A stretch of DNA of 26,625 bases from a virus. The notes under the pieces were generated by a model. The model did no database searches. It worked only from the letters and a program-made list of their open reading frames with translations, and was not told where the DNA came from. Within the stretch, counting starts at the first letter, position 1, and each line of letters starts with the position of its first letter. Made by a program: the position numbers and the translations under genes. The stretch spans positions 1 through 26,625 of IMG/VR virus record IMGVR_UViG_3300017759_000057; one strand, given 5' to 3'. Shown piece by piece: positions 242-10,309 of the stretch.

Positions 242-429
242 ACCCAATGTGGAAACAACAAGTCGGTAAAAGTTTTGTAATAGCGTCTAAAGTAGGAGAA
301 GTTTTTTCAAGGAGAAAACTACAACTAACTGACTATATTTCTCCTAATTTTTTCTTTGTTGATAAAATAGAAGGAATTACAATAATAATTAAAAATAACA
401 ACATAATGCAAATGGAAGAGATAAAATGA
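238..429 (+). CDS. Small hypothetical protein, 63 aa, TTG start
   Basis: The frame begins with a TTG that overlaps the upstream stop (TTGA) and sits 7 nt after a strong AGGGAGG, which decides the start. The next in-frame ATG is three codons later and is less well spaced. The product is 63 residues with a hydrophobic beta-like stretch near residues 47-52. No known domain is recognised. Its last codons carry a GGAAGAG ribosome binding site, and its stop overlaps the ATG of the sliding-clamp gene (ATGA). This chain of overlaps is the main support for the gene being real. Confidence 0.55.
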   Translation: MNPMWKQQVGKSFVIASKVGEVFSRRKLQLTDYISPNFFFVDKIEGITIIIKNNNIMQMEEIK

Positions 430-1193
430 AATTCGTAGTAAATAATAAACAAATGGAGAAAGCACTTTCGGACATACAAGGTAAAGGAAAGTATCTAGGT
501 AATGGTGGGCTAAGTTCATCAAAAATGGGAACATACTTCTATATGACATTAACAGACAATGTACTGGAAATATGGAACGGAGATATGACATTTGGATTAA
601 ACATTACAGTTGAAGTAACTGGAATAAGAAACGGTGCTTTTATTGGCGATGCCGCATTAATTATACCTTATCTCAAAAAGTTTGGTGAAGATGTATTGTT
701 TGATGTTGGTGACTTTTTGAAACTTACTTCGGGTAATAGAAAGGCTTCTTTGCCAATGGTAGTTAATCATCCAAATATGGAATCTATTTCCCGTATTAGG
801 GAAATGGTGAAGCACATATCCTATGAAGAAGAATTAGATAAACTTTGGTCTTTTGGAGCGCATAATTTTGAAGGTGCATTTAAACTGAGTAGTGAAACAT
901 TTAAAGAAGCATTAGGGCTTTGTGAATTAGTGAAGAGTGGTGTTTATAAATTAAATTATCTTGGTGGTAATGTAACCTTTTCAAGTAGAACAACTGCTTC
1001 AAATCAATATGAACAAACAATTCAATTAGCATTAGCGATGGGAGAAGATGCAACCCTTGAGTATTCGGGGCCTTTGCACAATTTCTTTGATAAAGAACAA
1101 ATCTTAAACTTTTATATTAAGGATGAATTTCCTTTACTTATTGTAGCAAACGATAGAAAAATATTGAAAGCCCCGTATTCGGGTGGTAATTAA
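426..1193 (+). CDS. DNA sliding clamp, PCNA-like processivity factor
   Basis: The product is a 255-residue protein of typical PCNA length. It is predicted to encircle DNA and tether the polymerase at the viral replication fork. Support is its length, a beta/alpha pattern suited to repeated clamp domains, a clamp-like strand-helix segment at residues 70-100, and a C-terminal strand pattern (residues 227-251, with FPLLIV then KAPY) like the last strands of PCNA and beta clamps. The gene lies immediately before the PolB N-terminal fragment, with 1 nt between its stop and that gene's ATG. The PolB C-terminal fragment ends in a PIP-box-like peptide, the expected ligand of a PCNA. Sequence similarity is weak by eye, so assignment to PCNA rather than another clamp rests on context. 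Confidence 0.65.
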   Translation: MKFVVNNKQMEKALSDIQGKGKYLGNGGLSSSKMGTYFYMTLTDNVLEIWNGDMTFGLNITVEVTGIRNGAFIGDAALIIPYLKKFGEDVLFDVGDFLKLTSGNRKASLPMVVNHPNMESISRIREMVKHISYEEELDKLWSFGAHNFEGAFKLSSETFKEALGLCELVKSGVYKLNYLGGNVTFSSRTTASNQYEQTIQLALAMGEDATLEYSGPLHNFFDKEQILNFYIKDEFPLLIVANDRKILKAPYSGGN

Positions 1194-1194
1194 A

Positions 1195-2832
1195 ATGATA
1201 ATTAGTAAATGTATAGATGATAAACATATTTATTCTGCATGGAGAGAAAACGGAGAGCGTAAGTTTAACTTAGAAGCGTTTGACCCTTATTTCTTTATTG
1301 AAGATAGTGAGTTTGAACATGAGAAATATTCTGCTAGTAAGCATATTACTAGGCCCTTTAAATATGAAAAGGGTGATTGGGTTTCTTTAAAAGGAAAGCC
1401 ATTGAAAAAAGTAATAGTAGAAAAAGCCAGTGATATTTACAAGGCTCGTAAAATGTGGAATACTACTTATGAAGCAGATGTACCTTTTGGCTTTCGATAT
1501 GCCATTGATAAGGTAGATAACATGCCGGAATATAAACTGCGTAAATGGTACTGGGATATGGAATGGCAACAAGGTGGAGAACATCATGATAAGATTACTA
1601 CTATTGTAATGTATGATAATTATGATAAAGAGTATTATCAGTGGGCTTGGTTTCCTAATTATGAAGGAGAAGAGTATTTACACTTTAATAATGAAAAAGA
1701 AATGATTGAATCCTTTATTCGAGTTATGGTAGATAAAGACCCTGATATGTTAATAGCATGGTTTGGATTGAAATTCGATTTGCCTAAATTGCTTGAAAGG
1801 TGTTGTGCATTGGACATCAACCCTATGCTTATGTCTCCAATTAACCGAATAGAAGGCGTTAAGAAAGCCGGAAATGGGTTTGTTTTCAGTAAGGTTGAAA
1901 GTGGATTCTCGCCCATACAACAACCATTAGGGGGCCGCATAACCCTCAATTTAGACCTAGCCTTTGAGAGACAGTGGAATGATTCACAAAGAGGAACATT
2001 ACCCTCAATGAGTCTTGAATATGTTTCTCAAACATTATTCGGTGAAGGCAAATCAAAGGAAACTATTTTTGAAGACCCCAATGAATTTTATCGTAGGGGT
2101 TGGCTTGAAGATACAGAAGCATATTTAAAATATGCTATAATAGATGTTGAATTACTTGTAAGAATAGATGAAACAAACTTCTGTAGTGAGGCTATTATTG
2201 CTTTACAAAGATTGCTCAAAGCACCGTTTGAAGCGTGTTTTTATGCAAGCCATATGGGTTCTATTTACTTTATGCGTAATGCAGATTGGATTTGTAAGAC
2301 TGGAAGTAAAGTCGATAAAAGAGAAGAATATGAAGGTGCTATGATATACGACCCTCTTAGTGAAGGTACAAATGGATTACATCTTAATGTAGCGGCTTTT
2401 GATTTTGCCGGATTGTACCCATCAATGATGATTGCTAGAAAGATTTCTTGGGAAACTAAAAGTGAAGAACAGACTGAATTTGCAGTTAATATTGCAACTC
2501 CAAGAGACTTTAGCCCTGTAGAAAGAAAGCACATGTTGTATTATAAAACAGATAAATTAGGACTATTGCCGAGAGCAGTTCTTGAATTGAAAGAGTTGCG
2601 AAATGAATATAAGCGTCTTATGCGAGATGCAAGAGAAAGTGGAGATGATTTAGAAGCAGTTAAGTGGCATAATAATCAAATGGCTGTAAAGCGTTTAATG
2701 GCATCTTTTTATGGCATTGTTGCATTTCAAGGGTTTGGTTGGGCCGATGTTAATTTGGCCGCAAGCATTACTGCGAGTGCAAGAGAAGCAATTAGATTAG
2801 CGGCGTTTAAGGCAAAGGAGATGAAAGTATGA
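1195..2832 (+). CDS. polB-N: Family B DNA polymerase, N-terminal subunit (exonuclease, motifs A and B)
   Basis: The product has 545 residues and covers the N-terminal domain, 3'-5' exonuclease and the first part of the palm and fingers. Exo I is WDME (D121, E123), Exo II ends KFD (D195), and Exo III is YAIID (D317). Motif A is DFAGLYPS (D403). Motif B is KRLMASFYG (K499), with Ala where Asn is usual. The frame then ends with AKEMKV and a TGA, so motif C, the rest of the palm and the thumb are missing here and are encoded at 4781-5665. ATG 1195 is preferred to the in-frame GTG at 1183, which would overlap the clamp gene without a ribosome binding site. All exonuclease acidic residues are present, so proofreading is expected. 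The split lies between the fingers and motif C, so activity should need both subunits. Confidence 0.9.
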   Translation: MIISKCIDDKHIYSAWRENGERKFNLEAFDPYFFIEDSEFEHEKYSASKHITRPFKYEKGDWVSLKGKPLKKVIVEKASDIYKARKMWNTTYEADVPFGFRYAIDKVDNMPEYKLRKWYWDMEWQQGGEHHDKITTIVMYDNYDKEYYQWAWFPNYEGEEYLHFNNEKEMIESFIRVMVDKDPDMLIAWFGLKFDLPKLLERCCALDINPMLMSPINRIEGVKKAGNGFVFSKVESGFSPIQQPLGGRITLNLDLAFERQWNDSQRGTLPSMSLEYVSQTLFGEGKSKETIFEDPNEFYRRGWLEDTEAYLKYAIIDVELLVRIDETNFCSEAIIALQRLLKAPFEACFYASHMGSIYFMRNADWICKTGSKVDKREEYEGAMIYDPLSEGTNGLHLNVAAFDFAGLYPSMMIARKISWETKSEEQTEFAVNIATPRDFSPVERKHMLYYKTDKLGLLPRAVLELKELRNEYKRLMRDARESGDDLEAVKWHNNQMAVKRLMASFYGIVAFQGFGWADVNLAASITASAREAIRLAAFKAKEMKV

Positions 2833-2833
2833 G
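2812..2833 (+). repeat. 22-bp direct repeat, copy 1 (polB-N end / gene junction)
   Basis: This 22-base stretch, running from GCAAAGGAG through ATGAAAGTATGAG, is identical to bases 3184-3205. It encodes the AKEMKV C-terminus of polB-N, supplies the ribosome binding site, and overlaps the start of the next gene. The two copies bracket three tiny genes. Confidence 0.9.
2821..2829 (+). repeat. 9-bp direct repeat ATGAAAGTA, left flank of polB insertion
   Basis: ATGAAAGTA here is repeated at 4781-4789. Removing the 1,960 bp from one copy to the other restores one continuous polB frame (AKEMKV-VYGHTDS). Confidence 0.85.
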
Positions 2834-2978
2834 AACTAATATTCTTAACGGAGGTTGGTCGCTAAATCCTCCTAATCCAAAATTTAGATGTTGGAAATGT
2901 GATAAATATAAAGTATCAAAGAAAATGAATAAATTGGGTAATTATTGCTTACAGTGCTATAAGGAGATGAAAATATGA
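2829..2978 (+). CDS. Small zinc-knuckle/ribbon protein, 49 aa
   Basis: The ATG overlaps the polB-N stop (ATGA) and follows AAGGAG at 2816-2820. The 49-residue product has two CxxC pairs (C21/C24 and C40/C43) separated by a basic loop, typical of a small zinc ribbon that could bind nucleic acid or protein. It ends KEMKI, because its last codons form the junction motif for the next gene. No specific family is recognised. It lies wholly inside the block that splits the polymerase gene. Confidence 0.65.
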   Translation: MRTNILNGGWSLNPPNPKFRCWKCDKYKVSKKMNKLGNYCLQCYKEMKI

Positions 2979-3112
2979 AATATGTTACCCAAACAGTTCT
3001 TGATGAAGAATACTATAAACTTTCTAAAGTAATCAAGAAAAACCTAGACCCCCTTTCTAAAGACGAATTAATTTATTTACTAATTAGGTATTTGATAGAG
3101 GTGAAAGTATGA
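2975..3112 (+). CDS. Small hypothetical protein, 45 aa
   Basis: The start overlaps the upstream stop (ATGA) after AAGGAGATGAAA. The product is a predicted helical 45-residue protein with an acidic/basic N-terminal half and an amphipathic helix near residues 30-41. It ends IEVKV, again the coded form of the junction motif GAGGTGAAAGTATGA. No homology is recognised. The case for a gene rests on its position in an unbroken chain of overlapping frames. Confidence 0.55.
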   Translation: MKYVTQTVLDEEYYKLSKVIKKNLDPLSKDELIYLLIRYLIEVKV

Positions 3113-3204
3113 AATGTAAAAAACCAATAAAACACAACCCTCAATTTGAAGGAAAGATTAACTGCAAACAATGTGAAAGAGAAGCAAAGGAGATGAAAGT
3201 ATGA
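3109..3204 (+). CDS. Tiny Cys-containing protein, 31 aa
   Basis: The start overlaps the upstream stop (ATGA). The 31-residue product has C3, H9 and a CxxC pair at C19/C22, which could make a single zinc knuckle. Its last residues, AKEMKV, match the end of polB-N because both are coded by the same 22-bp repeat. The gene could therefore have formed around the repeat. Function unknown. Confidence 0.5.
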   Translation: MKCKKPIKHNPQFEGKINCKQCEREAKEMKV

Positions 3205-3205
3205 G
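3184..3205 (+). repeat. 22-bp direct repeat, copy 2 (junction before GIY-YIG gene)
   Basis: This stretch is identical to 2812-2833. It carries the ribosome binding site and overlapping start of the GIY-YIG nuclease gene. Confidence 0.9.
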
Positions 3206-3824
3206 TTGCGTATATTTTATTAGACATAAGACTACTAAACCTATTAAGATAGGTTATACCGAAAAAGAAACACCCTTAGATAGAATTGCTACTATGGAAA
3301 CAGGTAGTCCTTTTGGAATTGAATTATTGGGCTTTATTGAAACAAATAATGCTAAAAAACTAGAAGTAGAACTACATGAAAAATATGATTCTTTTAGAAC
3401 AAAAGGTGAATGGTTTGATATTTCTGAAGAAGAGGTAAAATCTATTCTTAAAGAACATAGCACAATAAATATAAATTCTCTTCAAATACTTAGGGCTTTC
3501 TTAATTAAAGAAAGGTTAACTCCAAAAGAAGTGACTGACATAGTTAAATGGCATAAACAATATTATAGCCACCCAATAGATGAAGAAGTTCTTAGTTCAA
3601 GAAAAGAGTCGTTTAGTTTGGCAGTTAGTAAGTTTTACAAGGAAAAACTTATTCCTAAAAATGAACAGATTGCTACAAAAGTCATAGTGACTTGGCTTTG
3701 TAAAGAACTTAACTTAAGTCGTTCACAAGTTTATAAATATATGAAAGAGTATAGAAGTGAATTTTTTATAAATAAGAAAAAGGGAAGAGCGTCTTTTTTG
3801 TTGCTTAAGGAGTTGAAAGAATGA
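3201..3824 (+). CDS. GIY-YIG family nuclease (T5orf172/MUG113-like) with C-terminal HTH
   Basis: The product has 207 residues. The N-terminal ~80 residues match the T5orf172/MUG113 branch of GIY-YIG nucleases: VYFIR (Y5), IKIGYT (residues 16-20), R28 after the second strand, then ELH (E57, H59), R66 and GEWF (69-72). GIY-YIG enzymes cut DNA through a Tyr/Arg/Glu site. The C-terminal part has a likely helix-turn-helix (about 158-182, with LNLSRSQVYKYMKEY) that could give sequence specificity. It is the only recognisable enzyme in the block that interrupts polB, so a homing-endonuclease role is attractive. Many T5orf172 proteins have no known role, so homing is inference. It starts at an ATGA overlap, ends LKELKE, and overlaps the next gene the same way. 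Confidence 0.8.
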   Translation: MSCVYFIRHKTTKPIKIGYTEKETPLDRIATMETGSPFGIELLGFIETNNAKKLEVELHEKYDSFRTKGEWFDISEEEVKSILKEHSTININSLQILRAFLIKERLTPKEVTDIVKWHKQYYSHPIDEEVLSSRKESFSLAVSKFYKEKLIPKNEQIATKVIVTWLCKELNLSRSQVYKYMKEYRSEFFINKKKGRASFLLLKELKE

Positions 3825-4012
3825 AATTATTAGAAAGATGGATATATGAAGCGATGTTTGAATTTAATGGAATATTTACCGTTGACGAATTAAGAGACAA
3901 AATTGTAGCAAAGAAAGGCAATAGTATTTATATTGGAAGCAATACACAAATTGCATCTTATTGTAAAAAGTACGGTACGCTTGTTGCTCCTAGAACATAC
4001 AGGAGGAAATAA
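3821..4012 (+). CDS. Small winged-helix-like protein, 63 aa, paralogue A
   Basis: The start overlaps the nuclease stop (ATGA) after AAGGAG. The 63-residue basic protein has a helix-turn-helix-like pattern: RWIYEA, then FTVDELRDKI, then GNSIYIGS and IASYCKKYG, ending YRRK. It aligns along most of its length with the next gene's product, sharing W-x2-EA, FT-x2-E, KI, GNS-x-YI-x-S and a Tyr six residues further on. The pair looks like a tandem duplication. A small DNA-binding regulator is likely from charge and fold pattern, but this is not proven. Its 3' end supplies AGGAGG for the next gene. Confidence 0.6.
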   Translation: MKLLERWIYEAMFEFNGIFTVDELRDKIVAKKGNSIYIGSNTQIASYCKKYGTLVAPRTYRRK

Positions 4013-4013
4013 C

Positions 4014-4232
4014 ATGACAAAGATAAATGGGCGAATGAAAAAATGGGTTAAAGAAGCAATTCAAAACCAAGAAGAACCATTTACTGCAAGTGAGATATAT
4101 TCAAAGATTTTAGAAGACAGGGGCAATAGTATGTATATTACTAGCGTATATTCTGTTGGTGCTTACTTGAGTCAAATATGCGAAAAGAAAAAAACAAAAG
4201 AAAAAAATTTATATTGGAGAAGAGAAAAATGA
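4014..4232 (+). CDS. Small winged-helix-like protein, 72 aa, paralogue B
   Basis: The ATG at 4014 is chosen because AGGAGG (4001-4006) lies 7 nt before it; an in-frame ATG at 3933 would overlap paralogue A by 80 nt. The product is 72 residues and very basic at the end. It shares with its upstream neighbour W-x2-EA, PFTASEI, KI, GNSMYI and a following Tyr-containing helix. It is a probable DNA-binding protein by analogy with small winged helices. Its stop overlaps the next ATG. Confidence 0.6.
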   Translation: MTKINGRMKKWVKEAIQNQEEPFTASEIYSKILEDRGNSMYITSVYSVGAYLSQICEKKKTKEKNLYWRREK

Positions 4233-4399
4233 GAACTAAATTTGTAACAGTTAAAGTATCATATGATACAGAAGAGACTTGGGATATTACTTTACAAGAA
4301 GTAAAAGAAATATTTCAAATGATGAATAACTTGAAGCGTCACGCTATCATTGTAAATATAGAACAAGGTGTGAATAAGAATGATGATGGACAGGACTAA
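4229..4399 (+). CDS. Small hypothetical protein, 56 aa
   Basis: The ATG overlaps the preceding stop after GGAGAAGAG. The 56-residue product begins with a beta strand (TKFVTVKVSYD), then a helix with LQEVKEIFQMM, then a strand (HAIIVNIE), a small alpha/beta arrangement. No family is recognised. It overlaps the next small gene by 20 nt in another frame. Confidence 0.5.
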   Translation: MRTKFVTVKVSYDTEETWDITLQEVKEIFQMMNNLKRHAIIVNIEQGVNKNDDGQD

Positions 4400-4511
4400 T
4401 CAGTTATTAGAAGAATTGCTCGCTATGATAGCAAGGTCAAATAAGATATTGATGATGGTAAATATCGTGAACATAGCAACCATTATAACAATAATTACGG
4501 TGGTAATATGA
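4380..4511 (+). CDS. Single-pass membrane peptide, 43 aa
   Basis: Start ATG 4380, the first of three consecutive Met codons, about 9 nt after an AGG-containing purine run. The N-terminal half is charged and helical. Residues 24-43 are almost wholly Ile/Val/Thr/Met and form one predicted membrane helix reaching the C-terminus. The stop overlaps the ATG of the following coiled-coil gene. Function unknown. Confidence 0.45.
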   Translation: MMMDRTNQLLEELLAMIARSNKILMMVNIVNIATIITIITVVI

Positions 4512-4672
4512 ATAAACTAGAGAAAATGGAAAAGAAAATAAAGATGCTAGAAGAGGAAGTGGAGGATTTGTACTCTATAAATAAAAAACTATTAAAGATG
4601 TATAAAGCAATACAGGAACTACAAGACCAGTTTGACTCTCCCGCTATGAAATTTATATATTATTTGGAGTGA
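4508..4672 (+). CDS. Coiled-coil peptide, 54 aa
   Basis: The ATG overlaps the previous stop (ATGA), with GGTGG upstream. The 54-residue product has heptad-like Leu/Ile spacing and alternating Lys/Glu through residues 3-42, strongly suggesting a coiled coil. It follows a small membrane peptide in overlapping frames. That order resembles small phage accessory pairs, but no specific role can be given. Confidence 0.5.
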   Translation: MNKLEKMEKKIKMLEEEVEDLYSINKKLLKMYKAIQELQDQFDSPAMKFIYYLE

Positions 4673-4676
4673 TAAA

Positions 4677-4784
4677 ATGTTTTTACTTATTAAAATACTA
4701 GTACGCTTTATTATTAACGATTTGAAAACATTCTATAATGGAGTAATTATGATTATTAGTGAAGGTGTGGAGGCTCAAAAATGA
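4677..4784 (+). CDS. Tiny hydrophobic peptide, 35 aa
   Basis: Start ATG 4677 lies just after TTGGAGTGATAAA, which gives GGAG at good spacing. Most of the 35 residues are hydrophobic (FLLIKILVRFII, then VIMII), suggesting membrane association. Its main visible importance is that its end carries GGTGTGGAGG and its stop overlaps the ATG of polB-C, so it may provide translational coupling for the polymerase C-terminal subunit. Confidence 0.4.
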   Translation: MFLLIKILVRFIINDLKTFYNGVIMIISEGVEAQK

Positions 4785-4789
4785 AAGTA
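4781..4789 (+). repeat. 9-bp direct repeat ATGAAAGTA, right flank of polB insertion
   Basis: This is the second copy of ATGAAAGTA (see 2821-2829). It now provides the start codon and first residues (MKV) of polB-C. Confidence 0.85.
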
Positions 4790-5665
4790 GTATATGGACA
4801 TACTGATTCTATTTATGTTCAAATAGATTCAGTTGAAGAAGCACAAGCGGCTATAAAAGAAATAGAATCTTCAGTGAGAGAACATTTTCCTAATGTAATG
4901 GGTCTTGAAAAACATCCTGTTGTTTTGGAATTTGAAAAGTATTATTCCGCATTGGGTGTCGGAGCAACAAAGAATAGAAATGCCGGTATGATTACTTGGG
5001 ATGATGGAGAGTGGTTAGAAAAACCAAAATTTACAATGACTGGATTTACTGCTAAGAGAGTAAGTGAAACTCCTTTTGCTAAAGAAATACAATTATCTAT
5101 TCTAAAAAAGTGGGTTACAAAAGAACCATTAGGTAAAATAAATATTCATTTATTTGAAATATATCGTTCTGTTAAGAATGGAGAAATACCCATTTCTTCC
5201 TTAGTAAAACGAAGCAGATTAAAAAGTGAGAGATTTAAAGTAAAGTGTGTAGAATGTAATTCTAAATATAACTTAGAAGATTGTATTAATTTTAAATGGT
5301 GTAAAAAATGCGGCACCGAAACAAGTAGATTTGTTACCTTACAAAACAAAAGACCTAGCGTAGGTTCAGGTATTGCCGGTGTTTTGTATGCTAAACAAAA
5401 GTTAGATATGACATTTGATGATTCATATTTATTTCTAAAAGTCAACCACGACGATACATTTATCAACCCGTTGACTAAGGAGGAAAAAGCAGTACAGTAT
5501 ATATCCGGCACAACCTATGAAGACTTCAATGATTATGAACCGGATTGGCTTCACTACGCAGAACAGGTCTTGAAAAAGGCAGAGCCCGTTTATAGGGCTA
5601 TGGATTGGGACTTATCAAGCATAAGAACAGGAAAATTACAAACAAAATTGGATGAGTGGTTTTAA
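4781..5665 (+). CDS. polB-C: Family B DNA polymerase, C-terminal subunit (motif C, thumb, PIP box)
   Basis: The product has 294 residues and starts directly at motif C, YGHTDS (residues 5-10), with His in place of the first Asp of the usual DTD. KNRNAGMITW (64-73) matches the KKRYAG-type DNA-binding motif, and TGFTAKR (87-93) follows as expected. A Cys4 zinc ribbon (C156, C159, C174, C177) is inserted in the thumb region. The last eight residues, QTKLDEWF, fit a PIP box (Q-x2-L-x2-WF), so the fragment should bind the clamp encoded at 426-1193. GTGGAGG 7 nt before the ATG is a strong ribosome binding site. With polB-N it makes a complete polymerase of about 840 residues. The next gene starts immediately after its stop. 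Confidence 0.9.
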   Translation: MKVVYGHTDSIYVQIDSVEEAQAAIKEIESSVREHFPNVMGLEKHPVVLEFEKYYSALGVGATKNRNAGMITWDDGEWLEKPKFTMTGFTAKRVSETPFAKEIQLSILKKWVTKEPLGKINIHLFEIYRSVKNGEIPISSLVKRSRLKSERFKVKCVECNSKYNLEDCINFKWCKKCGTETSRFVTLQNKRPSVGSGIAGVLYAKQKLDMTFDDSYLFLKVNHDDTFINPLTKEEKAVQYISGTTYEDFNDYEPDWLHYAEQVLKKAEPVYRAMDWDLSSIRTGKLQTKLDEWF

Positions 5666-6571
5666 ATGAATAATGATGAAAAATATAATGCAGTAATTTC
5701 TGCTATGAGCGAATACACCTATGACTGGAAACCGGAGAATTATGATGACCCGACTAAACCTATATTGAAAATAACTAAGTCTTCTCTTGGGTCATTCGAT
5801 TGGTGTAATAAAAAGTACGACTTTTCTTACATTCAAAGATTACCTCAAGACCAAACGGAGGCTATGCGTAAAGGAACGGTTTTACACAACCATAGAGAGG
5901 ACTTTTTTAATGACTTTGATATTAAGAAAGCAGAAAGCATGACACCTCTTGAGGTTGAACAATATGTTAATGCTTTAACTCCCATTGATGAGTATTATGA
6001 TATCTCACTAAATGTAGCATCCTTTGAAACTAAGAGGTACTTAGAATCAAGAGCAGAAAATAAGACAGATGAGTATTTGCCGGTTTGTAATGAAGGTATG
6101 TTTGATGCCGAAATAACTATTGATGCAAATACAAACCCTAAATTTCCTTTGACTAGAGACTACAAGATACATATTCAAGGTATTATTGATAGGATTTTTA
6201 TGGAGAATGGTGGCTATGTACCTTTTGAATACAAAACTGGGCCTTGGAAGGATTATAAAGCAACAGGAATGCGTAAAGAAATGGCATTTTATCAATTACT
6301 GATTGAGAATGCAGAACCGGAAGTATTGATTAAGAATGGATTACAACCAAATGTGCCTGTAACTCATTGGGGTTGGTACTATCCTGTTTCTAATTATGTC
6401 TTTGCACAACCTGTAAAGTCTAGGTCTATGACTTCTGTTATGAATAATATAGCAAAACTAATTTGGGCCTATGAACAGAAGCAGTTTCCTACTAAGTTCT
6501 TTTGGAAAACATGTTCTTTTTGTAGTTTCTTTGGAATATGTGATGCAGCACAAGAAGATACATGGGTGTGA
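5666..6571 (+). CDS. RecB/Cas4-like PD-(D/E)XK nuclease with Fe-S cluster cysteines
   Basis: The product has 301 residues. The nuclease core shows GTVLH (H74), GIIDRI (D175), EYK (E188, K190) and Q210 in the QLL segment, the H-D-ExK-Q arrangement of the RecB/Cas4 family. Four cysteines, C47 and C283-x2-C286-x5-C292, match the AddB/Cas4 layout for a 4Fe-4S cluster that pins the two ends of the domain. Related proteins resect or trim DNA ends, here probably in viral recombination or replication. The ATG directly follows the polB-C stop, with no strong ribosome binding site, so translation may depend on the upstream gene. No CRISPR genes are near, so a Cas4 adaptation role is unlikely. Confidence 0.8.
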   Translation: MNNDEKYNAVISAMSEYTYDWKPENYDDPTKPILKITKSSLGSFDWCNKKYDFSYIQRLPQDQTEAMRKGTVLHNHREDFFNDFDIKKAESMTPLEVEQYVNALTPIDEYYDISLNVASFETKRYLESRAENKTDEYLPVCNEGMFDAEITIDANTNPKFPLTRDYKIHIQGIIDRIFMENGGYVPFEYKTGPWKDYKATGMRKEMAFYQLLIENAEPEVLIKNGLQPNVPVTHWGWYYPVSNYVFAQPVKSRSMTSVMNNIAKLIWAYEQKQFPTKFFWKTCSFCSFFGICDAAQEDTWV

Positions 6572-8039: not shown

Positions 8040-8735
8040 ATGTTAATTATAGACAGTAGAGAAAAAGAAGGTTCTAGATTAGTAAAACTAGTCGAGAATA
8101 AAGCGAAGGCCCTAAATATTCAAACAGAAAAAAAGTGGCTTGAAATAGGTGATTATGTATTTGATGATGTTTGTTTTGAAGCAAAGTCAACAACTGATTT
8201 CCTAGGTTCAGTAATAAGTAAAAGACTTTGGACACAAATAGATAACATGGATAGGCATTACAAAACAAATGTAGTTATTATTTATGGCACGATTGAAGAT
8301 GCAATCTTTGATGTAAAGAAGTATTCAAAATCTAATATTCAAGAACCTGCAAGAAGTATTATGTTAAATAATAAATTCTTAGGTGCAATAGGTAGAATAA
8401 CATTAGATACAGACATAAAGGCTTTTTGGGTTCCCACTGAAGAAGAAGCGTCACTAATTATTACAGCAATATGTAAAATGAAACCTATACAAAGGGATGT
8501 AATAAGACCTGAAATATTTAAGCGGATTTCGACTGATGATTTAAGACTTGATGTTCTCACAAGTATTAAAGGAGTATCAATCAAAAAAGCCAAACTCTTA
8601 ATAAAAGAGTATGGTTCTATTATGGAAATAGGAGAACAAACAGAAGAGGAATTGCAGTACCTCGATGGCGTAGGGCAAGTTTTAGCAACACGCATTTTAA
8701 ATACTCTAAATTCTGAAAAGAAGGTGAAAATATGA
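8040..8735 (+). CDS. XPF/MUS81-family ERCC4 nuclease with HhH domain
   Basis: The product has 231 residues, close to the short crenarchaeal XPF form without a helicase domain. The ERCC4 nuclease motifs are DSRE (D5, R7, E8), GDY (37-39) and FEAKS (E47, K49), the last a variant of the usual ERK with Ala in the middle. A tandem helix-hairpin-helix region follows at about 175-220 (IKGVS and LDGVGQ turns). Such enzymes cut 3' flaps and branched DNA at replication forks. AAGGAGG lies 3 nt before the ATG. Archaeal XPF often ends in a PIP box, but none is visible here: the protein ends EKKVKI, coded by the operon's junction motif. Confidence 0.85.
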   Translation: MLIIDSREKEGSRLVKLVENKAKALNIQTEKKWLEIGDYVFDDVCFEAKSTTDFLGSVISKRLWTQIDNMDRHYKTNVVIIYGTIEDAIFDVKKYSKSNIQEPARSIMLNNKFLGAIGRITLDTDIKAFWVPTEEEASLIITAICKMKPIQRDVIRPEIFKRISTDDLRLDVLTSIKGVSIKKAKLLIKEYGSIMEIGEQTEEELQYLDGVGQVLATRILNTLNSEKKVKI

Positions 8736-10309
8736 ATAATGATGAATATGATGAAGAATATGGAAATGAAATTTATGAAGATTATAAACAGGCGAGTGCT
8801 GTTTTTAAACAAAGCCTACCGGAGGTAGTAAAAGACTTTCAAGAAAAAGCGATGAATATATCGCACTTTAATGAAACTCCTGCTGTGATTAGTTTCTTTA
8901 CAATATTAGGGCAAATATGTAAAGATTTTATTGCAATACCTTTTGAAGAAGAATATGAAGATACTAGAATACATTTTCTTCACATTCAAACTTCGGGTAC
9001 AGGTAAAACAACATTGTCTAATTTTGTTCAACCAATTGCTAGAAATGTCTTTGAAAAAATAAACGAAAAACAAAAGCATCCATTTAATATGAATGTAGAA
9101 GTTCCTCTAAAAAATGAAAATGGTAACATTGAAAAAGATGCTAACGGTAATCCTATAATGCACTATGAAAGAAAAAGGTTTGATGTTTTTTCTGTTCAAG
9201 TAGCAACATCCGCCGCACTTGTTGGACATTACGCTATTCAAGATGAAATGGAAACAGACGATAATGGTAACTCTAGATTTACCGGACAAAAAATCCAAGT
9301 TAAAATGAATGGTGCTTTAGAAGGAAGTGGCTTGGCTCATTGGGATGAATTTGAAAGGTCTGGTATTTTTAGCCCTAATTCTCATCAAGTGGATATGGTT
9401 GTATTTTTAAATACTATGCTAAATACATTACATGGTGATTCTTGGGTCATGAAAAAACAACTTAAAGAAGGAGATACAGTTGAAACATTCGGAGAGCGTT
9501 CAGTATTAGCCATGACTTATCCTCCAACTGAATTAAATAGAATTATGACAGAAACAGGTTTGCTCCAAAGAATGCTTTGTTATATTCGAGAAGTTCCCGA
9601 ATCAATTCAACATAATATACGAAAGAAGAAAATTAGCAAGTTTGGAAAGTTTAAAGATAGACAAGGGGCTATGGATAATTTTTCAGATAAGTTTATAGAA
9701 ATGTATGACTTAGTATTAGAAAGATATGAAGAAATGAAAAAGGAAGGAAACTCAGATATTGAAACAAAATGTAATATGATGGTTTATACTAAAGATGCAA
9801 ATGACTATCTTGATTTGGAATATGAAAATATGATTGGTTACATAAATGACTGTGGATTGTTTGTGAGAGAAGTATCAAACCTGTTTATTAACAGGCTATA
9901 TATCATTACTTGCAAATTAGCAGTATTGTGTTCAGTGGCCCAAGCACCTTATATTAAAGATGAATCAAAGAGATTTCAAGTAACAAGTCAAAATGTTAGA
10001 CAGGCAGGGGCCATCACCCGACAATGTTATATGTCATTGGTAGAATGGCTTGAACGGAGCCTAAAGGAGAAGCGTATGGCCTCTCCCGTTTTCAATACAA
10101 AGCCATTTAAAGAAAAATACGAAGAGATGGCTAAAAAGACAGAAGATGGTTGGGTGAATAGAAAATTATATTTAGCAGAAATGAGAACTATAATTAAGAA
10201 AGGGGCTACAAGAACACATGAAATATTTAATCAACATGTAGCATCTAAATTTGAAATAAAATATATTGGTAGAGGTCAATATATTAAACTAAAGGAAGTG
10301 AAAATATGA
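8732..10309 (+). CDS. P-loop replicative helicase candidate (DUF3987/MCM-like layout)
   Basis: The product has 525 residues. Walker A is TSGTGKTT (G89-T94). Walker B is LAHWDE (D205, E206). SVLAMTYPP at 257-265 fits a sensor-1 strand, and LLQR (R280) fits an arginine finger. Residues 475-525 look like a winged helix. The N-terminus is very acidic. Position after primase and before an exonuclease suggests the fork helicase or primase-helicase partner. The Walker A lacks the GDPGxxKS form of classic MCM, and the overall layout recalls DUF3987-type phage ATPases, so the family remains open. The start overlaps the upstream stop (ATGA) behind GAAGGTGAAA. Confidence 0.7.
   Translation: MNNDEYDEEYGNEIYEDYKQASAVFKQSLPEVVKDFQEKAMNISHFNETPAVISFFTILGQICKDFIAIPFEEEYEDTRIHFLHIQTSGTGKTTLSNFVQPIARNVFEKINEKQKHPFNMNVEVPLKNENGNIEKDANGNPIMHYERKRFDVFSVQVATSAALVGHYAIQDEMETDDNGNSRFTGQKIQVKMNGALEGSGLAHWDEFERSGIFSPNSHQVDMVVFLNTMLNTLHGDSWVMKKQLKEGDTVETFGERSVLAMTYPPTELNRIMTETGLLQRMLCYIREVPESIQHNIRKKKISKFGKFKDRQGAMDNFSDKFIEMYDLVLERYEEMKKEGNSDIETKCNMMVYTKDANDYLDLEYENMIGYINDCGLFVREVSNLFINRLYIITCKLAVLCSVAQAPYIKDESKRFQVTSQNVRQAGAITRQCYMSLVEWLERSLKEKRMASPVFNTKPFKEKYEEMAKKTEDGWVNRKLYLAEMRTIIKKGATRTHEIFNQHVASKFEIKYIGRGQYIKLKEVKI

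Follow-up and report, generated by a model that had tools for sequence, protein, structure and literature searches.

Family B DNA polymerases (PolB) encoded by two genes have been described in archaea and in viruses. In Nanoarchaeum equitans, PolB is split over two genes that carry a split intein, and PolB3 of the Methanobacteriales is likewise an archaeal PolB that consists of two proteins, with no intein left (PMC4104785). Among phages, the two gp43 halves of Aeromonas phage 25 co-purify and are active (PMC2988022). The International Committee on Taxonomy of Viruses (ICTV) profile of the Aoguangviridae (magroviruses, Poseidoniales virus YSH_150918) presents an archaeal tailed virus whose 92-kb, AT-rich genome groups replication genes and virion genes into two opposed clusters; its figure labels PolB-NTD and PolB-CTD and lists PCNA, and a split magrovirus PolB is known from this record (PMC10768690). 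Here, the split polB gene of the virus fragment IMGVR_UViG_3300017759_000057 was analysed computationally (26,625 bp, positions 1-26,625; this full stretch is called the window in the following). It is considered likely, with a probability of about 0.82, that polB underwent fission once, between motifs B and C, in an ancestor shared by a large group of archaeal viruses that are probably magrovirus-like, and that the products form a non-covalent two-protein polymerase.

Both halves are encoded on the plus strand. polB-N (1195-2832, 545 amino acids, aa) comprises the N-terminal domain, the 3'-5' exonuclease, motif A in the palm (DFAGLYPS) and motif B in the fingers (KRLMASFYG), and polB-C (4781-5665, 294 aa) encodes the remaining palm with motif C (YGHTDS) and the thumb with a Cys-rich insertion. 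In Pfam searches, polB-N covers positions 28-195 and polB-C positions 220-371 of PF00136, and polB-N also matches PF03104, the PolB exonuclease domain. Profile searches of solved structures revealed the same complementary coverage of PolBs, with polB-N aligned to Deep Vent polymerase (residues 10-523) and polB-C to yeast Pol delta (residues 692-825). Since the halves match different parts of the profile and of solved polymerases, the break is located between motif B and motif C. As expected of a family B polymerase encoded by two genes, the PolB profile is matched in order across the halves, together with exonuclease and palm motifs. An earlier note, made from the sequence of this DNA, had placed the split at this point, and frames, coordinates and the PF00136 matches in both halves agree with it. 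The note had further described a precise insertion of 1,960 bp. The gap is real but measures exactly 1,948 bp from the stop of polB-N to the start of polB-C; the larger figure includes one copy of a 9-bp repeat plus the TGA.

Searches for relatives yielded more than 300 loci, and the records with both halves comprise 250 split and 32 intact ones; these records overlap and cannot be counted as independent. The 85 split genes in a tree of 100 representatives all fall into a single clade, with ten intact genes as its sister group; a tree of 36 sequences under a mixture model likewise unites 29 of 29 split PolBs with a support of 100/100. The haloviral and other outgroup PolBs are intact, the split site is identical in all split relatives, and no re-fusion of a split polB was seen in either tree. 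One fission explains the data. The proposal that a once-single PolB is now encoded by two co-directional genes is supported. As the same site is used throughout, with gaps that range from 0 to approximately 2.5 kb and differ in content, the split predates the insert of the window. A single precise insertion marked by a 9-bp duplication, as envisaged in the earlier note, does not agree with a split older than the insert.

The intact genes (e.g. 1439-3838 of L188) are uninterrupted frames of about 800 aa, in which the junction reads E-L-G-Y-x-V-x-YGHTDS; in the intact haloviral gene of L344 it is EELGYEVIYGDTDS. Excision of the block together with one 9-mer copy had been predicted to restore the ancestral gene. 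Intact relatives were found, but their codons are not joined in this manner: their junction exceeds the proposed product AKEMKVVYGHTDS by two residues, and the exact rejoined codons returned 0 matches among 2.9 million viral contigs.

Two features of polB-C were observed in addition. Motif C (4793-4810 of the window) carries a His in place of the usual first Asp. YGHTDS occurs in the split genes, in the intact sister clade and in L157 and L227, and YGDTDS in three haloviral genes, although the scan pattern itself demanded the His. The thumb insertion (5246-5311, polB-C residues 156-177) is Cys-rich and resembles a zinc ribbon; it contains four to six Cys in 51 of 51 split representatives measurable by script and none in the seven measurable intact ones.

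If the split gene were a decaying remnant, as split genes can be when they turn into pseudogenes, the virus would have to use another polymerase. This reading is highly improbable, because the ratio of nonsynonymous to synonymous substitutions (dN/dS) lies near 0.1 for polB-N and polB-C alike in most of the pairs compared (0.02-0.24 overall), no second PolB was found, and the split has been kept across deep divergence. Both polB-N and polB-C are under strong purifying selection. The search for a second PolB, an intact copy of which the earlier note had named as a sign of decay, was negative in the 26.6-kb window record and in 17 related split contigs, each of which encodes exactly one polB-N and one polB-C; 15 of these contigs are nearly 90 kb or longer. 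A two-subunit polymerase, already thought likely in that note and probably obligate, is the best-supported function, in line with the selection on both halves and the lack of another PolB. In the assembled enzyme, polB-N would provide the exonuclease, motif A and the fingers, and polB-C motif C and the thumb; with this distribution, neither half would possess a complete active site on its own. AlphaFold models of the single chains are confident for the exonuclease, the N-terminal domains and the thumb, and Foldseek matches the polB-C model to PolB structures. They are poor at the palm near the break (polB-N residues 373-417 and 507-545; polB-C residues 3-9 and 49-94), which fits a palm that is completed only upon assembly; shallow alignments could yield the same result.

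Loss of an intein offers another route to two genes and has been proposed for the PolB of Methanobacteriales (Makarova, 2014; PMC4104785). For the viral polB this origin appears very unlikely despite the archaeal precedent. In the window, polB-C begins directly with MKVVYGHTDS and polB-N ends in AKEM, with no extension at either edge, nor do the sequences of about 100 loci contain split-intein halves at the C terminus of polB-N or the N terminus of polB-C. The earlier statement that no intein is left is thus confirmed. The uninterrupted intact sister genes, too, show no intein-like part.

The 9-bp repeat itself, ATGAAAGTA, is present at 2821 and 4781, as had been noted, with a third copy at 3193. 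The left copy sits within a longer element, AAAGGAGATGAAAGTATG (2814-2831, plus strand), a predicted ribosome-binding/start signal that is built from the last codons of polB-N and overlaps the ATG of the next open reading frame (ORF) as ATGA; this ATG is the start of a small ORF at 2829. A second copy of AAAGGAGATGAAAGTATG is found at 3186 and one with a single mismatch at 2960; the last three bases of every copy are the start codon (ATG) of the small ORF that follows. Of 85 representative split loci, only 4 carry an identical 9-mer at the two edges, and in 79 the edge suffix and prefix have no match of three or more bases. The C-terminal residues of polB-N also vary among relatives (AKEME, AKELEV, AKEMKI, AKEI, and others). 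A target-site duplication was rejected in view of the extra copy, the AAAGGAGATGAAAGTATG context and the rarity of shared edges, so that the repeat stands as a sequence but not as an insertion scar. The earlier note had named differently placed splits without this repeat as evidence against it; the repeat is indeed lacking in the relatives, but their splits lie at the identical site.

Of 85 split loci, 76 have a Shine-Dalgarno core within the final 24 nt of polB-N, compared with 5 of 32 intact ones and with 20% of control windows. The Glu residue of AKE is encoded by GAG in 68 of 83 cases versus 23% across the gene body, and in 152 of 211 loci (near-copies included) the stop of polB-N and the next start overlap as ATGA. 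By these counts, the signal at the end of polB-N is under selection. Together with the extra ATGAAAGTA copy, the recurrence of AAAGGAGATGAAAGTATG and the rarity in relatives, this leads us to read the repeat as a translation-coupling signal that coincides by chance with the start of polB-C. As a separate observation, 22 bp are repeated identically (GCAAAGGAGATGAAAGTATGAG) at 2812-2833, at the end of polB-N, and at 3184-3205, just before and into a GIY-YIG ORF; a recombination footprint is a possible explanation.

The gap of the window is occupied by small plus-strand genes and this endonuclease-like ORF. Three small ORFs (49, 45 and 31 aa; 2829-3204) follow polB-N, chained by start/stop overlaps and with ends that read KEMKI, EVKV and KEMKV; the first two were each found in only two sampled inserts. 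The GIY-YIG endonuclease-like ORF (3201-3824), overlooked in the earlier note, matches MUG113 and T5orf172 (Pfam, 4.5e-16 and 4.7e-11) and a PHROG homing endonuclease (1.6e-8) and has a helix-turn-helix-like C-terminal part. A further small ORF (3821-4012) lies just before the cassette genes, whose frequencies were counted in 146 non-redundant gaps: gene D (4014-4232; small winged helix-turn-helix-like protein, 69/146), gene C (4229-4399; VTVKVSYDTEETWDI family, 93/146), gene B (4380-4511; small and, from its hydrophobic C-terminal stretch, probably a membrane protein, 106/146), and gene A (4508-4672; small coiled-coil-like protein, 107/146). The order before polB-C is often D-C-B-A. The gap content turns over: the polB-N genes of the window and of L005 are 99% identical, yet their inserts differ in content. 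No self-splicing intron of a described Rfam family was detected in positions 2600-5000.

The endonuclease-like ORF raises the question of whether a mobile element with a homing endonuclease split polB by precise insertion. Such an event has reportedly been proposed for nrdA of phage Aeh1 (mobE), and phage 25 harbors a GIY-YIG ORF between 43A and 43B. However, GIY-YIG ORFs are present in only 3 of 146 gaps, the window included, and HNH-like ones in 4 of 146, so they do not belong to the ancestral shared gap content. In addition, split genes without any gap exist, no conserved repeat flanks the inserts, and the split is far older than the insert of the window. As a cause of the split, the endonuclease is largely refuted by this rarity, and an origin by such an insertion seems very unlikely; the GIY-YIG ORF is a passenger of the window's insert.

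More weight has to be given to the genes between PCNA and polB. In 226 split loci, a median of 4 bp separates the PCNA-like gene from polB-N, whereas 640-2675 bp of small genes lie at this position in 22 of 22 scored intact loci. Four small-gene families (C, g10 and two others) are common to this interval of intact loci and to the gaps of split ones; in intact loci, 15 of 88 small ORFs in the interval match gap families versus 2 of 190 elsewhere, and in L281 cassette gene C lies immediately upstream of the intact polB. One rearrangement may thus have shifted the cassette from the PCNA-polB interval into polB, its entry itself causing the split; in a variant, polB-N moved upstream across the cassette, e.g. 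by tandem duplication and complementary deletion. We regard such a relocation as possible but doubtful. An intermediate that carries polB-N twice was not encountered, and two zero-gap loci, L162 and L180, both with an ATGA stop/start overlap, fall into different parts of the tree. L162 belongs to the small-gap sub-clade, the gap genes of which are largely different from those of the other. Its junction, GAATTAGAATGAAAGTAGTATATGGT, has 8 nt after the Leu codon versus 9 in intact genes, as though one base had been lost. L180 is sister to the large-gap sub-clade (91/85 in the mixture-model tree) and retains genes C-B approximately 6.6 kb upstream of polB-N.

The two zero-gap loci, the missing base in L162, the position of C-B in L180, and the differing gap genes lead us to infer a small, frameshift-type fission that preceded gap filling. 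According to this single-fission scheme, the halves would have become separate cistrons, polB-N would have evolved the ribosome-binding/start signal of the following gene at its 3' end, and small early genes would have piled up and turned over in the gap. Several points weigh against it. The zero-gap loci could be secondary gap losses, and with the interval sizes and the four shared families a one-step relocation fits about as well as fission first. Small genes may have moved into the new junction once fission had occurred, or a single relocation may account for both events; the gapless L180 with C-B retained elsewhere makes fission first somewhat more probable. Moreover, the subunit complex is a prediction, and the AlphaFold runs, made with single chains, cannot reveal an interface.

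In one relative, the halves appear to have different histories. The polB-N of L084 is 99% identical to that of the window, whereas its polB-C is 98% identical to that of L221 and 54% to that of the window. Tree tests reject a common history of the halves (p 7.5e-9 and 1.8e-42; indicative values, as the groups were picked after seeing the identities), and the crossover between the two virus lineages maps to 24 bp at the end of polB-N (about 9615-9638), though the switch may be an assembly error instead. It is conceivable, if rather unlikely, that recombination recurs permanently at the junction between polB-N and polB-C, where the short, conserved ribosome-binding motif serves as crossover point, polB-C is swapped with neighbouring early genes, and subunits from lineages with 54% identity cooperate. 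If true, fission made the polymerase two exchangeable modules. An apparent two-by-two exchange among L039, L040, L104 and L261 was rejected as a likely assembly artefact, as L040 and L104 lie on one contig and have about 900 bp in common close to the crossover. This contig (IMGVR_UViG_3300021958_000021, 184,733 bp) has about twice the usual genome size, carries two different split PolBs, and probably arose when two genomes were fused by the assembly. Some loci gave two domain hits for polB-N; considered as a second split, most of these belong to one frame.

The putative PCNA-like sliding clamp gene (426-1193, plus strand) was assigned from its operon position and from homologues adjoining polB, and it matches no Pfam family. 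Downstream, polB-C is followed by a PD-(D/E)XK nuclease gene (5666-6571, plus strand; PDDEXK_1, 2.9e-13). A 525-aa ORF at 8732-10309 has a P-loop-like GTGKT motif and the position expected for a replicative helicase; no Pfam match was obtained. The viruses with a split polB probably infect ocean archaea. A host search in 84,980 prokaryote genomes gave one match only, a contig of a bacterial metagenome-assembled genome labelled 'Maricaulis' (L347, NZMJ01000151.1) with a 48%-identical polB-C, which is probably a mis-binned viral contig.

A deeply diverged clade has retained a replicative polymerase whose palm is interrupted midway, while the gene of its sister clade is intact. Nature thus offers a test of how permanent fission is tolerated by an enzyme core, of why it was never repaired, and of whether new genes come to settle in the gap that it left. 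By published description, the layout of the window, with a G+C content of 33%, resembles that of the Aoguangviridae, and that of the window and its relatives would be compatible with the Magrovirales (described by a 90-110 kb AT-rich genome, PCNA, PolB, nuclease, opposed morphogenesis cluster). The Aoguangviridae profile does not cover the split site, its origin, the gap content or an exchange of halves (PMC10768690). In the literature surveyed, there seems to be no account of the single origin, of the filling of the gap or of the exchange of halves, although a prior description of details is possible. In comparison with the N. equitans PolB, which could be rejoined by trans-splicing via its intein parts, the window polB has no such parts. 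Methanobacteriales PolB3 is also formed by two proteins without an intein but belongs to a cellular PolB3 lineage. The gp43 of Aeromonas phages 25 and 44RR (43A/43B) is likewise a viral PolB in two adjacent genes; there, the split lies between motifs A and B, with motif B (KILINSLYGAL) and YIDTDS both on 43B, whereas in the window it falls between motifs B and C.

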